DNA from: Candidatus Promineifilum breve
GTDB lineage: Bacteria; Chloroflexota; Anaerolineae; Promineifilales; Promineifilaceae
Direction of reading: 5' to 3'
NCBI RefSeq assembly: GCF_900066015.1
Contig: NZ_LN890655.1
Location: 372,001 to 436,000 of the forward strand
DNA length: 64,000 nt
In this document: one piece after another, positions 16,086-24,640 of the stretch
Layout of the letters: the number at the start of each line of letters is the position of its first letter
How positions within the stretch are numbered: position 1 is the first letter of the stretch
Notes under the pieces: generated by a model
Seen by the model: the letters and a program-made list of their open reading frames with translations, nothing else
The model's database searches: none
Told to the model about the DNA's origin: nothing
Program-made: the position numbers and the translations under genes

Positions 16086-16949
16086 ATGACGAGTAACACG
16101 AACCGCAAGAAAGTTTCGCTCCTCGATTTGCAGGCCAAGAAGCAGCGCGGCGAACCGATCACCATGCTGACCGCCTACGATTATACCGGCGCGCTGCTGG
16201 TCGACCGGGCGGAGATCGACACCATCCTGGTGGGCGATTCGCTGGGCATGGTCGTAATGGGCCTGGACAGCACGGTTCCGGTGACAATGGATGAAATGCT
16301 CCACCACTGCCGCGCCGTCGCGCGTGGGGCAACCTATGCCCATTTGATCGGCGATATGCCGTTCATGTCCTATCAGGCTGACGTGAGCGAGGCCGTGCGC
16401 AACGCGGGCCGCATGCTGAAGGAAGGCCACGTTGATAGCATCAAGCTGGAGGGGGGGCGCGAGATGGCCGCCACGGTGCGGGCCATCGTCGCCGCCGGGA
16501 TCGCCGTCATGGGCCACATTGGACTGACGCCGCAATCGCTGAGCAAATTGGGCGGCTTCCGGGCGCAGGGGCGCACGGCCGAGGCCGCCCGCCGGCTGCT
16601 CGACGACGCCCTGGCCCTGGAAGACGCGGGCTGCTATGCCATCGTCCTGGAGGCCGTGCCCGCGCCGGTGGCGGCCGAGATCAGCCGCCGCCTGCGCATC
16701 CCCACCATCGGCATCGGCGCCGGGCCGGGTTGCGATGGGCAGGTGCTGGTCTTCCACGACATCCTCGGGCTGTACGACCGCCTCCAGCCGCGCTTTGTCA
16801 AGGAGTATGCCCAGCTCCAGCAGCCGATCCTCGACGCCTTCGTCGCCTATCGCGAGGACACGGTTCACCATCGCTTTCCCACGGCCGAACATTCCTTCTC
16901 AATGAATGCCGAGGAACTGGAGGCTTTTCAAAAAAGCCTGGAAGAGTAG
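16086..16949 (+). CDS. panB: 3-methyl-2-oxobutanoate hydroxymethyltransferase
   Basis: 287 aa, normal length. The family signatures are clear: ITMLTAYDYTGALLVDRAEID, LVGDSLGMVVMG, VSEAVRNAGRML, KLEGG, GHIGLTPQS and IGIGAGPGCDGQVLVFHD. It transfers a methylene group from 5,10-methylene-THF to alpha-ketoisovalerate to give ketopantoate, the first step of pantothenate synthesis. First gene of the panB-panE-panC operon; panE begins 6 nt after its stop. Confidence 0.97.
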   Translation: MTSNTNRKKVSLLDLQAKKQRGEPITMLTAYDYTGALLVDRAEIDTILVGDSLGMVVMGLDSTVPVTMDEMLHHCRAVARGATYAHLIGDMPFMSYQADVSEAVRNAGRMLKEGHVDSIKLEGGREMAATVRAIVAAGIAVMGHIGLTPQSLSKLGGFRAQGRTAEAARRLLDDALALEDAGCYAIVLEAVPAPVAAEISRRLRIPTIGIGAGPGCDGQVLVFHDILGLYDRLQPRFVKEYAQLQQPILDAFVAYREDTVHHRFPTAEHSFSMNAEELEAFQKSLEE

Positions 16950-16955
16950 GCGGCC

Positions 16956-17942
16956 ATGAAAATCGGTATCGTGGGCATCGGCGCGTTGGGCTGCTTGCTG
17001 GGCGCTTACTTGGAGGAAGTGGCCGACGTCGTCCTGATCGGCCAGTGGCCGGAGCAAGTGGCGACCATTCGCGCCGCCGGCTTGTGGCTGGAGCGGCTCG
17101 ATGGCCGGCGCACGCGCCATTCTCTGCCCATCACCTCTGACCCGACCGAAATAGGGTGCGTGGATGTCGCGTTGATCGCCGTTAAGAGCCGGCAAACAAA
17201 GGATGCGGCCCATCTGGCTGCCCCCCTGCTGGACGCGGACGGACTGGTGGTGACGCTGCAAAACGGGTTGAATAATTGCGCCACGTTGCGCGGCGTCCTG
17301 GGCGAGAGTCGGGTCACGCTGGGCGTCACCGCCCAGGGGGCGACACTCTTGGGCGCGGGCCAGGTACGTCATGCCGGTGCTGGCCCTACCTATTTTGGGC
17401 TTGATCTAGCGCTTGGTTCGGCCCAGCAAGAGCGGTTACCGCGCCTCGTCGAACTTTTCAACAGCGCCGGCTTTGAAGCCCATCTGGTGGCGGATACCGA
17501 CGGGCTGGTTTGGAGCAAGCTGGCGGTCAACGCGGCCATCAATCCCCTGACGGCCCTGCTACGCGTGCCCAATGGCTTTCTGAGCGAGCATGACGCGCTG
17601 GTGGCGGTGATGCGCGGCGTGGCCCAGGAGGTCGTCGCCGTGGCCGCGGCCCAGGGTATCACCCTGCCCCTGCCCGACACGCTAGATCGCCCCCGCATCG
17701 TGGCCCAGGCCACGGCCGCCAACCGCTCCTCCATGCTCCAGGACGTGGAGCGCGGCGCGCTGACGGAAAACGACGCCATCTGCGGCGCGGTGGCCCGTCT
17801 CGGCCGCGACTTGAGTGTGCCCACACCGCTGAATAGCCGCCTGTGCCGGCTGGTGCGCCAGGTGGACGAAGTCCGGCCGCCGCTGCGTGAAGCGGGCGAC
17901 GTGGCCGGGTTACTGGCCCTATTGAACGACGTAAGCGAGTGA
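16956..17942 (+). CDS. panE: 2-dehydropantoate 2-reductase
   Basis: 328 aa. An N-terminal Rossmann motif IGIVGIGALGCLLGAYL and a ketopantoate reductase C-terminal domain (DGLVWSKLAVNAAINPLTALL, SSMLQDVERGALTENDAICG) carry the substrate Lys/Asn and Glu. It reduces ketopantoate to pantoate with NADPH. It lies between panB and panC with 4-6 nt spacing, which fixes the pathway role. Confidence 0.95.
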   Translation: MKIGIVGIGALGCLLGAYLEEVADVVLIGQWPEQVATIRAAGLWLERLDGRRTRHSLPITSDPTEIGCVDVALIAVKSRQTKDAAHLAAPLLDADGLVVTLQNGLNNCATLRGVLGESRVTLGVTAQGATLLGAGQVRHAGAGPTYFGLDLALGSAQQERLPRLVELFNSAGFEAHLVADTDGLVWSKLAVNAAINPLTALLRVPNGFLSEHDALVAVMRGVAQEVVAVAAAQGITLPLPDTLDRPRIVAQATAANRSSMLQDVERGALTENDAICGAVARLGRDLSVPTPLNSRLCRLVRQVDEVRPPLREAGDVAGLLALLNDVSE

Positions 17943-17946
17943 AGTG

Positions 17947-18807
17947 ATGAGAATATTGCATACCATTGCCGAAGTCAGGGATTTTCGCCGGAGCCAGGGT
18001 CAGGCGACGCTGGGGCTCGTGCCCACGATGGGCTTTCTCCACGAGGGGCATCTGGCTCTGGTGCGCCAGGCGCGGGCGGAAAACGAATCAGTCGCGGTCA
18101 GCATTTATGTCAATCCCAAACAGTTCGGCCCAACAGAAGATTTGAGCCGCTACCCGCGCGATCTGGCGCGCGATCTCGCCCTGTTGGGCGAAGAAGGGGT
18201 GGACTGTGTTTTCATTCCTGACAATGAAGAGATGTACCCGACCGATTTCCAATCCGGCGTGGTGGTAAAAGAGATCACCCAGCCGCTGGAAGGCGCGCGC
18301 CGCCCGACCCATTTCGAGGGCGTCACGACCGTCGTCGCCAAGCTGTTCAACATTTTCCAACCCACCCGGGCCTATTTCGGCCAGAAGGACGCCCAACAGG
18401 TGGCCGTCGTGCGGCAGATGGTGCGCGACCTGAACTTCGGGCTGGGCATCGTCGTCGGCCCGACGGTGCGCGAGGCGGACGGGTTGGCGCTGAGTTCGCG
18501 CAACAAATATCTGACGGTCGAGCAACGGGCGACGGCCACCGTGCTCCATCGGGCGCTCCGGTCGGCCGAGGCCCACTGGCAATCAGGCGAACGGGATAGC
18601 GACGCGCTCCGCTCGACGATGCGGCAACTGCTTGAGGCTGAGCCGTTGGCGCGGGTCGATTACGTCAGCGCGGCCGATCCGGCCACCCTGGGAGAGTACG
18701 CGGGCCTCATCCCACCCGGCGCGGGGGCCTTGCTGTCGATGGCCGTTTTCTTCGACCGCACGCGATTGATCGACAACGTCCTGCTCAGCGGCGACGCCAC
18801 GACGTGA
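17947..18807 (+). CDS. panC: pantoate--beta-alanine ligase
   Basis: 286 aa. The HIGH-type motif PTMGFLHEGHLALV, the pantoate/ATP site VSIYVNPKQFGPTEDLSRYPR, YFGQKDAQQ and the KMSKS-like GLALSSRNKYL are present. It joins pantoate and beta-alanine through a pantoyl-adenylate. The ATG at 17947 is taken; an adjacent GTG at 17944 would add one residue. panD (beta-alanine supply) is not in the window. Confidence 0.96.
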   Translation: MRILHTIAEVRDFRRSQGQATLGLVPTMGFLHEGHLALVRQARAENESVAVSIYVNPKQFGPTEDLSRYPRDLARDLALLGEEGVDCVFIPDNEEMYPTDFQSGVVVKEITQPLEGARRPTHFEGVTTVVAKLFNIFQPTRAYFGQKDAQQVAVVRQMVRDLNFGLGIVVGPTVREADGLALSSRNKYLTVEQRATATVLHRALRSAEAHWQSGERDSDALRSTMRQLLEAEPLARVDYVSAADPATLGEYAGLIPPGAGALLSMAVFFDRTRLIDNVLLSGDATT

Positions 18808-18811
18808 GATA

Positions 18812-19567
18812 ATGACCGACGCGTTGACATTCCCACCTGAATTAGTGGAGCGGTTGCGAACGGCGGCCAACGTGGTAGTGCTTACCGGCGCGGGCATCTC
18901 AGCTGAGAGCGGCATCCCCACCTTCCGCGAGGCGCAAACCGGCCTGTGGGCGCAATACGACCCGCAAGAACTGGCGACCCCGCAAGCCTTCCGGCGCAAC
19001 CCCCGTCTGGTATGGGAATGGTACGCCTGGCGACGCGCGCTTGTCGGCCAAGCCGCCCCCAACGCCGGCCATTACGCGCTGGCCGAGTTGGAGCGCCGTG
19101 TGCCCCACTTCAGCCTGATCACCCAAAACGTGGATGGCCTCCACCAGCAGGCGGGCAGCGGCAACGTGATCGAACTACACGGCAATATCGCCCGCGTTAA
19201 GTGCGCCGCCGAAGATCGGGTGGTTGACCAGTGGGCCGAGACGGCGACTCCCCCGCCGCGCTGTCCCCAGTGCGGCGCGCTGCTGCGGCCCGATGTGGTC
19301 TGGTTCGGCGAAATGTTGCCGGCGGCGGCGCTGGAGCGGGCTTTTCAGGTTTCGGGCGCGGCCGATCTATTCCTGACCGTGGGCACGTCGGGCATCGTCC
19401 AGCCGGCGGCCTCTTTGCCGCTTGAAGCGGTCGAGGCCGGGGCGTTGGTCGTCGAGATCAACCCCGAGACCACTCCTCTCTCACCATGGATGACCTTCTC
19501 GTTACGCGGCGCTGCCGGTCGTCTTTTACCCGATCTACTCGCTGCCGCTTGGCCGCCTCCTGCCTGA
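18812..19567 (+). CDS. cobB: NAD-dependent protein deacylase, class III sirtuin
   Basis: 251 aa. The NAD site GAGISAESGIPTFRE, TQNVDG and catalytic His123 (ELHG) are intact. Tyr71 and Arg74 (WYAWR) reproduce the YxxR pair of SIRT5/CobB-type sirtuins that bind negatively charged acyl groups, so desuccinylase or demalonylase activity is likely. The zinc site is odd: Cys151 and Cys154 (CPQC) are there, but the first pair keeps only Cys131, with Glu134 where the second Cys is expected. It starts 4 nt after panC. Confidence 0.92.
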   Translation: MTDALTFPPELVERLRTAANVVVLTGAGISAESGIPTFREAQTGLWAQYDPQELATPQAFRRNPRLVWEWYAWRRALVGQAAPNAGHYALAELERRVPHFSLITQNVDGLHQQAGSGNVIELHGNIARVKCAAEDRVVDQWAETATPPPRCPQCGALLRPDVVWFGEMLPAAALERAFQVSGAADLFLTVGTSGIVQPAASLPLEAVEAGALVVEINPETTPLSPWMTFSLRGAAGRLLPDLLAAAWPPPA

Positions 19568-19947: not shown

Positions 19948-20313
19948 ATGACGACCATATTGCAGATCGAGGATAATTACGCCAACCGCCGGCTGGTCGA
20001 GCGCGTGCTGGAGCCGACCGGGTATCGCCTGATCCATGCCTTCGACGGGCAGAGCGGCATCAATGCCGCCCTGCAAGATCGGCCGGATTTGATTTTGCTC
20101 GATATGGGCCTGCCGGATATGGACGGCCAGACGATCGTCGCGATTCTGCGCGAGTCGCCCATGCTCAGCGATGTGCCCATCATTGCCCTGACGGCCTGGC
20201 CGCCCACGATCGCCATTGAGATGGCCGCCCGCTATGGCTGTGACGGCTGCATCACCAAGCCGATCAACGTGTCGGAATTTCCGGGGCAGATCGCCGCTTA
20301 TCTATCGCCCTAA
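19948..20313 (+). CDS. single-domain CheY/DivK-like response regulator
   Basis: 121 aa, receiver domain only. All five key positions are present: the acidic pair in QIEDNYANR, phosphoacceptor Asp (LLDMGLPDMDG), Thr (IALTAW) and Lys (ITKPINVSEF). It resembles regulators of the DivK type that act by protein contact. The start at 19948 gives the normal N-terminus; an earlier in-frame start would add an unlike basic stretch. No partner kinase nearby. Confidence 0.88.
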   Translation: MTTILQIEDNYANRRLVERVLEPTGYRLIHAFDGQSGINAALQDRPDLILLDMGLPDMDGQTIVAILRESPMLSDVPIIALTAWPPTIAIEMAARYGCDGCITKPINVSEFPGQIAAYLSP

Positions 20314-20358
20314 TCGTGCTCCACCGCCCGGAGCGTTATTCAGCCCGCAATCAGCCTC

Positions 20359-21288
20359 ATGGATCTATATCCAGCAAGCGAATTCTCCCTAGAAGAACTC
20401 ACCGAGGCCTATAATCAGACCCGCGCTGATTATCTCATCCCGATGCCGATGAACTCCGTTCGGATGCAAGAGTACATCCTCCTGTATGACATCGATTTGG
20501 CCCGTTCACGGGTGGCGGTCGTGGACGGCGCGATTGTCGGATTGGGGATGCTGGGGTTGCGGCCGGAGATGGGCTGGCTCACCCGGCTGGGGGTATTGGC
20601 CGAGGGGCGTCGCCAGGGGGTCGGCAACGCCATTCTGCAAGCCCTGCTCGACGAGGCGCGCCACATTGGCTTGCCGGTCGTCTGGCTGGAGGTGATTCTG
20701 GGCAACCTGCCGGCCCACGAGCTTTTCATCAAGCATCACTTTCGGACCACGCGCGAGTTAATCGTCGCCCGCCGCTCCCCCACAGCTGAACGCACCATGA
20801 CCGCGGTCACCGCCGCGCGCAAAATCCATTATCTCCAGCATGACGAGGCCATCGACCTGCACTGCCGCCGCGGGGAGCGCATGAATTGGCTGACCTCGAT
20901 CGATACCATGCGCAACGTACGCCGCCTGTCGAATGCCGCCGCCCTGGGTGATTACGAACAGGGCATGCCGCAGGAGATGCCCCACCTATCGGGTATCTGG
21001 ATTGAGTTCAACGACGGTTCGCAGGGCTGGGTAACCTATATGGCGACCAGCTATCAATTAAAGAATATCAGTGTGGAAGTCGTGCGCGGCGACGCAACGC
21101 GCACGACGGCCAACCTCCTGGAATTCATGCACCGCCTGCATACAGCCCAGGACGCGATTGTGGAAAACATACCGGACGATGCGCGCTGGCAAGGCTATCA
21201 CCAGGCCGGCTATTTCGAGGTATTTCGTCGCATCGAGATGGTGTGCGATCTCAGCGCCTATTCAAACAATGCCAGCTATGGAGGATGA
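20359..21288 (+). CDS. tandem GNAT N-acetyltransferase
   Basis: 309 aa. Residues 5-140 form a GNAT domain with the acetyl-CoA motif GVLAEGRRQGVGNAILQALL. Residues 150-305 look like a second, degenerate GNAT half (GIWIEFNDGSQGWVTYM, then a C-terminal YHQAGYFEVFRRIEM resembling the GNAT 'xGF' end). The substrate is unknown. It ends 6 nt before the large fusion gene and is likely co-transcribed with it. Confidence 0.8.
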   Translation: MDLYPASEFSLEELTEAYNQTRADYLIPMPMNSVRMQEYILLYDIDLARSRVAVVDGAIVGLGMLGLRPEMGWLTRLGVLAEGRRQGVGNAILQALLDEARHIGLPVVWLEVILGNLPAHELFIKHHFRTTRELIVARRSPTAERTMTAVTAARKIHYLQHDEAIDLHCRRGERMNWLTSIDTMRNVRRLSNAAALGDYEQGMPQEMPHLSGIWIEFNDGSQGWVTYMATSYQLKNISVEVVRGDATRTTANLLEFMHRLHTAQDAIVENIPDDARWQGYHQAGYFEVFRRIEMVCDLSAYSNNASYGG

Positions 21289-21294
21289 GGGGAA

Positions 21295-24036
21295 GTGATC
21301 ATTACGCCCGAAGCAGTCGTAGATGCGGCCGACCGCATTGCCCACGTTGCCCACCGGACTCCGGTATTGACCTCCCGGACGGTCGACGAGCGCCTCGGTT
21401 ATCACGTGTTCTTCAAATGCGAGAATTTGCAACGCATCGGCGCGTTCAAATTTCGCGGGGCCTACAACGCCATCAGCCGCCTGAGCGCCGCCGAACAGAC
21501 CGCGGGCGTCGTCACCCATTCCAGCGGCAACCATGCCCAGGGTGTGGCCCTGGCCGCCCGGCTGTTGGGGGTGCGGGCCGTGGTTGTCATGCCCGAGGAC
21601 TCGCCACCCAACAAACGCGCCGCCACCGCGGGCTACGGCGCGGAAATCGTCACCTGCCCGGCCCTCAGGCGCGAGGAGGTGACCGCCGATCTCATCGCCG
21701 CACACGGCTACACCCTCATCCATCCTTACGATAACGATGACATCATCGCCGGGCAGGGCACCGCGGCGCTGGAACTGTTCGATGAGGTGGGGCCATTGGA
21801 TTATTTGTTCGTGCCCGTCGGCGGCGGTGGGTTGATCAGCGGTAGCGCCCTGGCCGCCCAGGTGCGCGCGCCGAATTGTCGCGTCGTGGGCGTCGAGCCG
21901 GCCTTGGGCGACGACGCCGGTCAATCCTGGCGCGACGGCCGCATCCACAAGCTCGACGCCGTGCCGGCCACCATCGCCGACGGCTTGCGCACGCGGGCCA
22001 TCGGCCAACGCAATCTGGCGATCATGGGCCGCTACGTCAGCGACATGACCACGGTCAGCGAGGCCGAAATTATCGACGCGCTGGAATTCATCTGGTCGCG
22101 CCTGAAAATCGTCGTGGAGCCAAGCGCCGCCGTACCCTTCGCCGCGCTGCTGGCCGGGCGCACTGCTGTACCCGCCGGGGCGCGCGTCGGCGTATTGCTC
22201 AGCGGCGGCAACGTTGACGTCGCCGGCCTTAGCCTGTTCGCGCGGCCACCAGCCGGCGCCGACGAGCAGCCCGCCACGGCCGAGCAGCCGGCCCGCCCCC
22301 TGGCTACCAAGGCCCGCAAGCCGTCGCGCATTCTCCTCTGCGCGCCCATCGAGGACGCCGCGCTGGAGGTTCTCCGTGCAGCCGGTGAGGTGGACGTCAT
22401 CCCCGCCGATGATGAGGAGTTGTTGCTGTCCCGTATCGGCGACTCTCACGCCCTGATCGTGGGGCGCAACCAGCGCATCACCGCCGACGTCATCAAATAT
22501 GGCTATAACCTGCGGGCCATCGGCACACTCGATAGCCATCTGGACAACATCGACGTCAGCACCGCCCGCGCGCTGGGGATCGAGATCTGCTACGCGCCGG
22601 ATAGCCGCTCCGTCACCATCGCCGAGCACACGCTGGGCCGCCTGTTGGCCCTGGCCGGTCGGTTCACCGACGGCCGTCTGGCCGGCAAAACATTGGGATT
22701 GATCGGCTTCGGCCTGGTGGGGCGACAGATTGCCCAGCGCGCCGCTGCCTTCGACATGCGCATCCTGGTCAACCAACCGCGCCTCACGCCCGAATTGGCC
22801 CTTGCTTCCGGCGTCGAGGCCACGGATCTGATCCAGCTGCTGGCCGCCTCCGACTTTATCAGCCTGCACGTGCCCTTCACCGAAGAGACCGACGCCATCA
22901 TCGGTGCGGCCGAATTGCGCCACATGAAGCCGACAGCCGTCCTGGCGAACATGGGCCACACCGATCTGGTCGATGAGGCGGCCCTGCTCCAAGCCCTGGA
23001 AGCGGGGGAATTGGCCGGGGCCGCGCTGGCAAACCTGCCGGCGGTGGTGAGTGATCCAACGCCGGCTTCGCTGGCGCTCCGGGACCATCCGCGCGTCCAC
23101 GTCGCCCCCCACGTCTCGGCCTTGCTGGATAACCAACTGCGCGATTCCTCGCTCGACATCGCCCGGCAGGTGGCCGCAGCCCTAACAGCCCGCCGTACCA
23201 GCGAGACGCTCGAGCTGGAGCTTGTGCCCATCGAACAGGTCGTGCCGCATGAGCACATCGACATGAAGCGTGTGGCGCGGCTGGTCGACCGTCTGGAAGA
23301 GGACGGCCGGCTGATCAACCCGCCCATCACCACCTACTGGAAGGGGCGTTTCATTATCCTCGACGGGGCCACCCGTTACAGCTCGCTCAATCAACTCGGC
23401 TACCCCCACGCCATCGTGCAGGTTGTCGATAAGGATCGCGAGGGGTTCCAGCTGCATACCTGGTATCATGCCGTCTCGGCCGAGGAAGCGCCCGATGCCG
23501 AAGACACATTCCAACAATTGCACACCCGGCTGGCACAGATCGACGGCCTGATCCTCAGCCCCACCAACGCCGACGATGCCCAAATCGCCCTGCAACGGCC
23601 GGAATCCCTCTGCTTCTTCATCGACCGGCAGGGGGGCATGACGCTGGCCGAGGCCGCCCCCGGTGCGTCCAAGCTGGCGGTGATGAACGGCATTGTCGAT
23701 ACCTACAACGCCTGGGGCCGGGTGGAGCGCACCCTGCTGACCGATATCGATCGCCTCGTCGCCCAGTTCCCGCGGCTGGTGGCCGTGGCCGTCTTCCCCC
23801 AATTCTCGCCTGAGGACGTTTTCGACGCCGCGGCCAATGGGGATCTGCTGCCCGCCGGGCTGACCCGCTTTGTCATCCCCGGCCGCATCCTGCGCCTGAA
23901 CGCCGACCTGGAGCGGCTGAAGCGGGATGAGCCGTTGGCCGAAAAACGGGCCTGGTTCAATGAGTTCCTGGCCGGCAAGCTGTCGCGCAGCCGGCTACGG
24001 GTCTATCAGGAGCCGGTGGTCTTGCTCGATGAATGA
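21295..24036 (+). CDS. three-domain fusion: PLP Thr/Ser dehydratase-racemase, 2-hydroxyacid dehydrogenase-like, ParB/SerK-like
   Basis: 913 aa, GTG start at 21295 (a GGAGG lies about 11 nt upstream). Residues 1-315 are a fold-type II PLP enzyme: Lys52 in GAFKFRGA, SSGNHAQG, VGGGGLISG and LSGGN, as in threonine dehydratase or serine racemase. Residues 340-640 resemble NAD-dependent 2-hydroxyacid/3-phosphoglycerate dehydrogenase (LIGFGLVGRQIA near 468, a His in VAPHVSA). The catalytic Arg position in NMGHTDLVDE (about 551) is His, so this part may bind rather than oxidise. Residues 645-913 resemble the ParB/sulfiredoxin-fold free-serine kinases SerK/SbnI (PHE near 650, ILDGATRY near 690). All three relate to serine chemistry. 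The HAD gene overlaps by 8 nt. Confidence 0.82.
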   Translation: MIITPEAVVDAADRIAHVAHRTPVLTSRTVDERLGYHVFFKCENLQRIGAFKFRGAYNAISRLSAAEQTAGVVTHSSGNHAQGVALAARLLGVRAVVVMPEDSPPNKRAATAGYGAEIVTCPALRREEVTADLIAAHGYTLIHPYDNDDIIAGQGTAALELFDEVGPLDYLFVPVGGGGLISGSALAAQVRAPNCRVVGVEPALGDDAGQSWRDGRIHKLDAVPATIADGLRTRAIGQRNLAIMGRYVSDMTTVSEAEIIDALEFIWSRLKIVVEPSAAVPFAALLAGRTAVPAGARVGVLLSGGNVDVAGLSLFARPPAGADEQPATAEQPARPLATKARKPSRILLCAPIEDAALEVLRAAGEVDVIPADDEELLLSRIGDSHALIVGRNQRITADVIKYGYNLRAIGTLDSHLDNIDVSTARALGIEICYAPDSRSVTIAEHTLGRLLALAGRFTDGRLAGKTLGLIGFGLVGRQIAQRAAAFDMRILVNQPRLTPELALASGVEATDLIQLLAASDFISLHVPFTEETDAIIGAAELRHMKPTAVLANMGHTDLVDEAALLQALEAGELAGAALANLPAVVSDPTPASLALRDHPRVHVAPHVSALLDNQLRDSSLDIARQVAAALTARRTSETLELELVPIEQVVPHEHIDMKRVARLVDRLEEDGRLINPPITTYWKGRFIILDGATRYSSLNQLGYPHAIVQVVDKDREGFQLHTWYHAVSAEEAPDAEDTFQQLHTRLAQIDGLILSPTNADDAQIALQRPESLCFFIDRQGGMTLAEAAPGASKLAVMNGIVDTYNAWGRVERTLLTDIDRLVAQFPRLVAVAVFPQFSPEDVFDAAANGDLLPAGLTRFVIPGRILRLNADLERLKRDEPLAEKRAWFNEFLAGKLSRSRLRVYQEPVVLLDE

Positions 24037-24640
24037 ACCCATTCAGGCGATCATATTCGACGTCGGCGGTGTCCTGGTGCGCACCCATGACCAATCCGGC
24101 CGGCGGGTCTGGGAAGAGCGGCTGGGGCTGGCCCCCGGCCAACTGGAGGCGATTGTTCTCAATAGCGAGATGGGGCATCGCGCCCAACGGGGCGAGATTT
24201 CGGATGATGAGTTGTGGGCCTGGGTGAGCCAACGGTTCAGCCTGGGGGATGAGCTGGACGCTTTCCGGCCGGACTTCTGGCGCGGCGACGCGGTGGATCA
24301 GGGTCTGGTAGCGTTGGTGGGCCGCCTCAACCGGCGCTATCAGACCGCCATCATCAGTAATGCCACCGATGCCCTGCTGACGACGCTGGAAGATTACCAA
24401 CTATTGGTGGAGTTCGATCTGGTCGTCGGTTCCGCCTACGAGGGACTGATGAAGCCGGCGCCGGCCATCTTCGAGACGACGCTGATCCGGTTGGGGCGCG
24501 TGGCGGCCGAAACGGTGTTCATCGACGACGCCCCGGCCAATATCGCCGGGGCGCAAGCCGTGGGCCTGCAAACGATCCTGTTCACCCCGGCGCTCGATCT
24601 GGCGGCCGAACTTGCCGCGCTGGGTGTCCGCACCGATTGA
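24029..24640 (+). CDS. HAD-superfamily hydrolase
   Basis: 203 aa, YihX-like. Motif I is FDVGGVLV (nucleophile Asp in the DxG form), motif II ISNATD, motif III Lys in GLMKPAPAIFE and motif IV FIDDAPANIAGA. The second acid of motif I is Gly rather than Asp, which weakens but does not exclude phosphatase activity. The ATG at 24029 overlaps the fusion gene by 8 nt, so translation is coupled. A phosphoserine or related phosphate ester would fit the neighbour but is a guess. Confidence 0.87.
   Translation: MNEPIQAIIFDVGGVLVRTHDQSGRRVWEERLGLAPGQLEAIVLNSEMGHRAQRGEISDDELWAWVSQRFSLGDELDAFRPDFWRGDAVDQGLVALVGRLNRRYQTAIISNATDALLTTLEDYQLLVEFDLVVGSAYEGLMKPAPAIFETTLIRLGRVAAETVFIDDAPANIAGAQAVGLQTILFTPALDLAAELAALGVRTD

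Follow-up and report, generated by a model that had tools for sequence, protein, structure and literature searches.

Which parts of a bacterial protein still work as enzymes when a single chain joins a pyridoxal 5′-phosphate (PLP) enzyme, a dehydrogenase and a kinase-like domain, and what could such a chain do for the cell? The question is raised by a gene of Candidatus Promineifilum breve in the 64,000-nucleotide stretch analyzed here (hereafter the window; positions 372001–436000 of contig NZ_LN890655.1, in a genome of 5.03 Mb). An earlier note on this DNA, made from the letters alone, had read the gene as a three-enzyme serine fusion coupled to a phosphatase. We find a three-domain protein recurrent in related filamentous Chloroflexota, in which the active-site residues of a serine kinase-type and a serine racemase-type domain are kept and the catalytic triad of a central phosphoglycerate dehydrogenase is lost. 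We propose, at what we judge to be about an even chance, a serine branch-point enzyme in which two domains still catalyze and a pseudo-dehydrogenase serves as their scaffold; as such it would probably control what becomes of the cell's surplus serine. The gene and its parts are:

21295–24036, + strand: fusion gene, GTG start, TGA stop, 913 uninterrupted codons
21295–22236, + strand: domain 1, residues 1–314, fold-type II PLP enzyme of the serine racemase / threo-3-hydroxyaspartate ammonia-lyase group (Pfam PALP, NF005454, Schizosaccharomyces pombe match)
22237–22323, + strand: linker, residues 315–343, predicted disordered (AlphaFold2, residues 316–340 with predicted local distance difference test (pLDDT) score below 50)
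22324–23196, + strand: domain 2, residues 344–634, derived from phosphoglycerate dehydrogenase (TIGR01327, alignments, dN/dS)
23200–24036, + strand: domain 3, residues 636–913, putative free serine kinase domain of SbnI/SerK type (profile, fold, conserved residues)

One intact frame encodes the three domains

GGGGAA stands shortly before the GTG start at 21295, and inspection of the frame revealed no stop codon or frame break inside 21295–24036. The same PLP–dehydrogenase–kinase frame occurs in 19 species of the window's order with lengths of 859–938 aa (two of them are truncated by the contig edge on their 3′ side), and separately named assemblies yielded 17 three-domain frames that are full or nearly so. 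An artefact of sequencing or assembly that merged separate genes is ruled out by this recurrence across species and independent assemblies; we found no point in its support and give it practically no credence. The single 913-aa chain is thus as the earlier note had described it. All three domains are under purifying selection, with dN/dS values (within the three-domain group, non-saturated estimates) of 0.05–0.19 for domain 1, 0.07–0.27 for domain 3 and 0.085–0.315 for domain 2, where selection is slightly weaker.

The C-terminal domain resembles free serine kinases

To place domain 3 we combined profile, structure and residue comparisons. A profile built from 19 relatives matched SbnI in the Protein Data Bank (PDB) at 5.9e-33 (profile positions 5–270 of 271) and archaeal SerK at 3.4e-9 to 1.2e-7 (positions 7–222), with DNA-binding ParB chains reaching only E 0.2–0.3. 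The AlphaFold2 model of the domain (pLDDT 90.5) gave the same ranking in VIA-align, with Z 22.1 for SbnI and 21.9 for SerK (Z 22 over 238 residues) against Z 6–7.6 over approximately 90 residues for ParB/Noc; the list held only SbnI/SerK, ParB/Noc, Srx and unrelated folds and excludes no other family. Pfam PF02195 misses domain 3, and neither a helix-turn-helix nor a ParB_N match was found in the window's copy by Pfam. These comparisons reject a DNA-binding ParB identity; a match to such ParB alone, which the earlier note had named as refuting its reading, is not what they gave, and they bear out the likeness to SbnI and SerK that the earlier note had seen in residues 640–913. In an NCBIfam scan the C-terminal part matched SbnI at 9.3e-24 (84 bits, cut-off 350) and SerK at 1.4e-9 (37.5 bits, cut-off 380); falling below both equivalog cut-offs, the domain is by its scores a distinct subfamily, neither SbnI nor SerK proper.

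The residues associated with serine kinase function are kept. Glu653 (23251–23253) aligns with SbnI Glu20 and SerK Glu30, the latter being the residue mutated to Ala or Gln (E30A/E30Q) in PDB structures 5x0e-k; a DGxxR motif spans Asp690–Arg694, and a C-terminal PAG(V/L)TRF..GR motif is common to domain 3 and SbnI. Among 70 kinase-domain relatives (three-domain, two-domain and stand-alone), His652, Glu653, Asp656, Arg659, Asp690, Gly691, Arg694, Trp723 and His725 are kept in 99–100%. SbnI of Staphylococcus staphyloferrin B biosynthesis (PDB 5uje, 5ujd, 6nr6) resembles the whole of domain 3, Glu20 and DGxxR included, but is a stand-alone protein of a siderophore operon, whereas here the domain is the third of a Chloroflexota chain and no sbn genes were seen nearby. 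The ADP-dependent SerK of Thermococcus kodakarensis (PMC5120207; PDB 5x0b-k) shares the fold, and the equivalents of its Glu30 and Asp69 are kept, but it is a separate protein with about 17% identity to domain 3. We therefore classify domain 3 as a putative free serine kinase domain, predicted to phosphorylate free L-serine.

The central domain is most likely a decayed phosphoglycerate dehydrogenase

Domain 2 carries a Pfam 2-Hacid_dh_C match at residues 460–608 (1.3e-38) and an NCBIfam D-2-hydroxyacid/phosphoglycerate dehydrogenase region at about 345–641. Its best family match is TIGR01327 (SerA), at 2.1e-51 but with 175 bits, below the family cut-off of 454. The fold is that of SerA and the Rossmann GxGxxG motif is kept as GFGLVG (residues 471–476; 22705–22722), which may still bind nicotinamide adenine dinucleotide (NAD). 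Alignment to canonical SerA shows in contrast that the catalytic Arg-Glu-His triad is broken in the window's protein. The Arg is replaced by His555 (22957–22959), a change seen in the earlier note that proves nearly fixed: none of the 18 aligned three-domain proteins retains the Arg (17 His, 1 Tyr). At the Glu position there is no conservation (Glu aligns in 3/18, within a gapped loop; the window's protein has Val), and the catalytic His is kept in 17 of the 18 (His606 here). About 17 aa of the substrate-side active-site loop are deleted, the NAD-binding Asp is replaced by Gln (Gln494), a conserved replacement motif GHT(D/E/N)L is present, and the ACT/ASB domain of SerA is missing.

A separate full-length canonical SerA scores above the cut-off in each of the ten genomes tested, so the fused domain is dispensable for serine synthesis and a role as the cell's phosphoglycerate dehydrogenase is rejected. 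Domain 2 is thus most likely a decayed phosphoglycerate dehydrogenase that would not oxidize 3-phosphoglycerate. The suspicion that this part no longer works as a dehydrogenase is well founded, and of the "three-enzyme" fusion the three domains stand; three enzymes is an overstatement, since the middle one has lost its Arg, substrate loop and conserved Glu and full-length SerA is encoded elsewhere.

The N-terminal domain belongs to the serine racemase group

Pfam PALP covers residues 20–304 of domain 1 (3.5e-78), and serine racemase of S. pombe matches it with 50% identity (phmmer 2.5e-94; Foldseek 1.4e-35, TMt 0.92). With residue roles assigned after the description of serine racemase in PMC6333871, the domain retains the PLP lysine Lys52 (21448–21450), Ser77 (21523–21525) corresponding to the racemase/catalytic Ser84 of the human enzyme, Arg126 corresponding to S. 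pombe Arg133, the metal-site residues Glu201, Gly205 and Asp207, and the tetra-Gly (GGGG, 176–179) and SGGN (303–306) motifs. The PLP, Ser and metal residues are those of S. pombe and human serine racemase and of bacterial threo-3-hydroxyaspartate ammonia-lyase; unlike the chain studied here, those known enzymes are free of dehydrogenase and kinase domains. Among NCBIfam models the top one is NF005454, threo-3-hydroxy-L-aspartate ammonia-lyase, at 429 bits (equivalog cut-off 452).

Two other identities were considered and set aside. By sequence and by Foldseek, the match to aspartate racemase (5ybw) comes far behind those to the serine racemases. A diaminopropionate synthesis of SbnA/SbnB/SbnI kind was dropped because domain 1 is serine racemase-type, not SbnA-type, and the dehydrogenase is SerA-type.

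The fusion joins two older genes

Among 56 genomes of the window's order, 43 carry the kinase domain. The three-domain gene is present in 19 genomes, and 19 others have a two-domain dehydrogenase–kinase (SerA–SerK) gene of about 550–640 aa alone; one genome (G416) carries both. Beyond the order, two-domain genes are also present in further Chloroflexota (Caldilineaceae, Ardenticatenaceae and others) as well as in metagenome-assembled genomes (MAGs) of Desulfobacula/Deltaproteobacteria. Arg, Glu and His are all kept in 24/46 two-domain alignment rows, and on the kinase-domain tree the intact or decayed state of the triad changes at least 8 times, 5 of these changes being forced by well-supported branches. 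The dehydrogenase has thus lost its catalytic residues repeatedly beside a kinase site that has stayed almost constant. Two-domain proteins with a complete triad stand as evolutionary intermediates, absent from the earlier note.

Most of the family's two-domain genomes also have a stand-alone serine racemase-type gene, mostly 61–67% identical to domain 1 and usually placed in an operon of the order CheY–GNAT–PLP(–HAD), GNAT denoting a GCN5-related N-acetyltransferase and HAD a haloacid dehalogenase-type phosphatase. A stand-alone PLP copy is found in 16/19 two-domain-only genomes and in 0/19 three-domain genomes, a descriptive contrast among related species. By this distribution the fusion has a two-gene origin: within one family, the PLP member of the CheY–GNAT–PLP–HAD operon was joined at its 3′ end to a SerA–SerK gene. 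The PLP-domain tree shows 4 changes, at least 2 of them forced, and is compatible both with a fusion that arose once and with occasional later splits.

Further homologs were seen beyond these genes. SerA–SerK or SerK-like proteins with 36–40% identity occur at loci L204 and L217 (also L201, L214 and L216), from Deltaproteobacteria/Desulfobacula and one Gammaproteobacteria MAG, which suggests transfer outside Chloroflexota. Approximately 25 further Chloroflexota genomes (L033–L059) have stand-alone SerK-like genes with open frames of about 240–375 aa, and neither a SerA nor a PLP homolog was seen near the gene at those loci; the copy in L050 bears a 240-aa N-terminal extension. A partial duplication is seen in L135 (5164–8692), where a 106-aa fragment that matches the kinase domain in its C-terminal part is found some 1.5 kb downstream of the two-domain gene.

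Neighboring genes predate the fusion

The fusion gene is flanked on the same strand by the other members of the PLP operon:

19948–20313, + strand: single-domain CheY-like response regulator, 121 aa, first operon gene; homologs lie upstream of GNAT in relatives
20359–21288, + strand: GNAT acetyltransferase-domain protein, 309 aa (Pfam Acetyltransf_1, 2e-13), conserved context
24029–24640, + strand: HAD-IA phosphatase, 203 aa, motif I DVG (Pfam Hydrolase, 1.3e-15)

The ATG of the HAD gene at 24029 overlaps the fusion 3′ end by 8 nt (ATGAATGA), as the earlier note had reported; a 237-aa open reading frame (ORF) given as starting at 23927 represents no more than this gene's longer open frame. The best specific models for the protein are HAD-1A3 TIGR02247 (1.8e-17) and YihX-like glucose-1-phosphatase (4.3e-12), both below cut-off, and no serB-type match appeared in the NCBIfam scan. 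We therefore rejected a phosphoserine phosphatase identity: a divergent SerB-like HAD frame (76 bits, below the serB cut-off) sits elsewhere in the genome, beside serA. Nothing was found that ties the HAD gene to phosphoserine, to which it is not demonstrably linked, and the claim that all four parts touch serine, phosphoserine or phosphoglycerate is unproven, the nearest family of the PLP domain being threo-3-hydroxy-L-aspartate ammonia-lyase. Because HAD genes already adjoin stand-alone PLP genes (L256 and L264), the fusion owes this neighbor to the older PLP operon.

The GNAT gene is likewise a conserved upstream partner of fused and stand-alone PLP genes, and the C-terminal half of its product is a second, GNAT-like half. 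Together with the CheY-like receiver (both at 19948–21288) it travels with the serine racemase-type gene, fused or not. Further upstream, panB, ketopantoate reductase (panE) and panC stand in a row at 16086–19567, directly followed by a sirtuin-like gene (from ORF translations only).

Serine and cysteine genes elsewhere in the genomes

The window's genome encodes canonical serA beside a class-V (BhcA/PhnW/SerC-like) aminotransferase (L249, 7953–10723), and a CysM-type synthase (342 bits). No CysE scored above the cut-off in 10 genomes, in a search with a single family model. O-phosphoserine is usable by CysM-type enzymes in some bacteria, and a use for O-phosphoserine therefore exists.

At six loci (L160, L164, L165, L172, L173 and L176) a class-V aminotransferase gene, or an aminotransferase gene with a canonical serA, stands directly upstream of the two-domain gene. 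The serK of some Desulfurococcales clusters with serA and an aminotransferase gene (PMC5120207), the same gene set, and we regard the six loci as a candidate bacterial serine assimilation operon. The routes that feed serine carbon into central metabolism include serine deamination and SerK–SerC–SerA (PMC5120207), and the 913-aa chain unites one enzyme type from each.

Proposed function and alternatives

In the mechanism that we propose, the N-terminal domain would use PLP for the beta-elimination, and perhaps also the racemization, of a beta-hydroxy amino acid; the likeliest substrate is L-serine, which would give pyruvate and ammonia. The C-terminal domain would phosphorylate free L-serine with a nucleotide as donor. 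The resulting O-phosphoserine could enter CysM-type cysteine synthesis or return to 3-phosphoglycerate via SerC and SerA, and the middle domain would probably serve dimerization and act as an NAD(H)- or ligand-responsive connector. We infer each catalytic activity, the sharing of serine and the sensing role from the homologies and conserved residues above. That ATP activates human serine racemase and NADH inhibits it (PMC6333871) lends plausibility to a nucleotide-binding connector but proves nothing here. A bolder version, which we hold only tentatively and think rather unlikely as a whole, is that one chain sets the fate of serine, deamination or racemization against phosphorylation, with the retired dehydrogenase as a sensor of NADH (or 3-phosphoglycerate) that couples the choice to redox state, and that the two-domain ancestors, with intact SerA and SerK and a SerC-like aminotransferase, would be a one-protein bacterial version of the archaeal assimilation of serine to 3-phosphoglycerate.

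Several points weigh against the branch-point proposal. The full-length AlphaFold2 model (pLDDT 84) has a predicted template modeling score of 0.46, which leaves the arrangement of the domains uncertain. SerK uses ADP (PMC5120207) and binding of CTP by a SerK-like protein is reported in PMC12704722, so the phosphate donor of domain 3 is unpredictable; the operon neighbors CheY, GNAT and HAD have no known serine role; and the absence of CysE rests on one model. The NF005454 match also means that serine may not be the common substrate of both catalytic domains. It is possible, if on the unlikely side, that the PLP domain acts mainly on L-threo-3-hydroxyaspartate, yielding oxaloacetate and ammonia, or on another beta-hydroxy amino acid, with no substrate in common with the kinase; the fusion would then serve co-expression, or let the kinase and dehydrogenase domains exert regulation. 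All eight PLP sequences, fused or stand-alone, have NF005454 as their top model (404–443 bits, far above IlvA/TdcB), and the PLP gene had its own operon before the fusion; yet every score falls below the equivalog cut-off. As serine racemases eliminate both threo-3-hydroxyaspartate and serine (PMC6333871), membership does not exclude serine and leaves the substrate open, and the repeated coexistence with a serine kinase, followed by fusion, favors serine.

The roles of the other two domains could also be read differently. Domain 3 follows the SerA-like domain exactly at the ACT/ASB position and SbnI is also named as a transcriptional regulator, so that it might be a serine- or nucleotide-binding regulatory domain in place of the C-terminal ACT/ASB of SerA/IlvA proteins and no kinase; we consider this improbable, as the catalytic Glu, DGxxR and C-terminal TRF/GR are kept in essentially all copies beside a decaying dehydrogenase, a pattern that fits retained catalysis. 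It is more doubtful still that the middle domain has taken up another redox activity, on a new substrate or with NADP preference, which would make the protein truly three enzymes: the Rossmann motif, His606, the GHT(D/E/N)L motif and a dN/dS well below 1 agree with such a change, but three-domain forms lack Arg, Glu and the substrate loop, and the triad has also been lost several times independently in two-domain forms.

Significance

Every domain belongs to a known type; what is apparently new, as far as checked, is their combination in one chain and the gradation between active enzyme and pseudoenzyme. No SerA–SerK or PLP–SerA–SerK fusion was found in the papers searched, which included the main text of a survey of ParB-CTPase-fold fusions (PMC12704722), and the earlier statement that the architecture is undescribed agrees with this. 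That survey reports many fusions of the fold to other domains, SerK-like ones included, but its main text mentions neither a dehydrogenase nor a PLP-enzyme partner; a survey based on PF02195 may have missed domain 3, which this Pfam model does not match.

These results correct a likely mis-annotation of such proteins as "threonine dehydratase" or "phosphoglycerate dehydrogenase". Free serine kinases had been described in a few archaea and in the staphyloferrin pathway, with no clear bacterial SerK homologs according to PMC5120207; putative members now extend across Chloroflexota and some Desulfobacula-like bacteria, where they are joined either to SerA or to its relic. The two-domain form suggests a bacterial route between serine, 3-phosphoglycerate and cysteine that would operate without CysE, and the three-domain form makes it possible to test, along a gradient that leads from working enzyme to pseudoenzyme scaffold, how a regulatory or structural role evolves.

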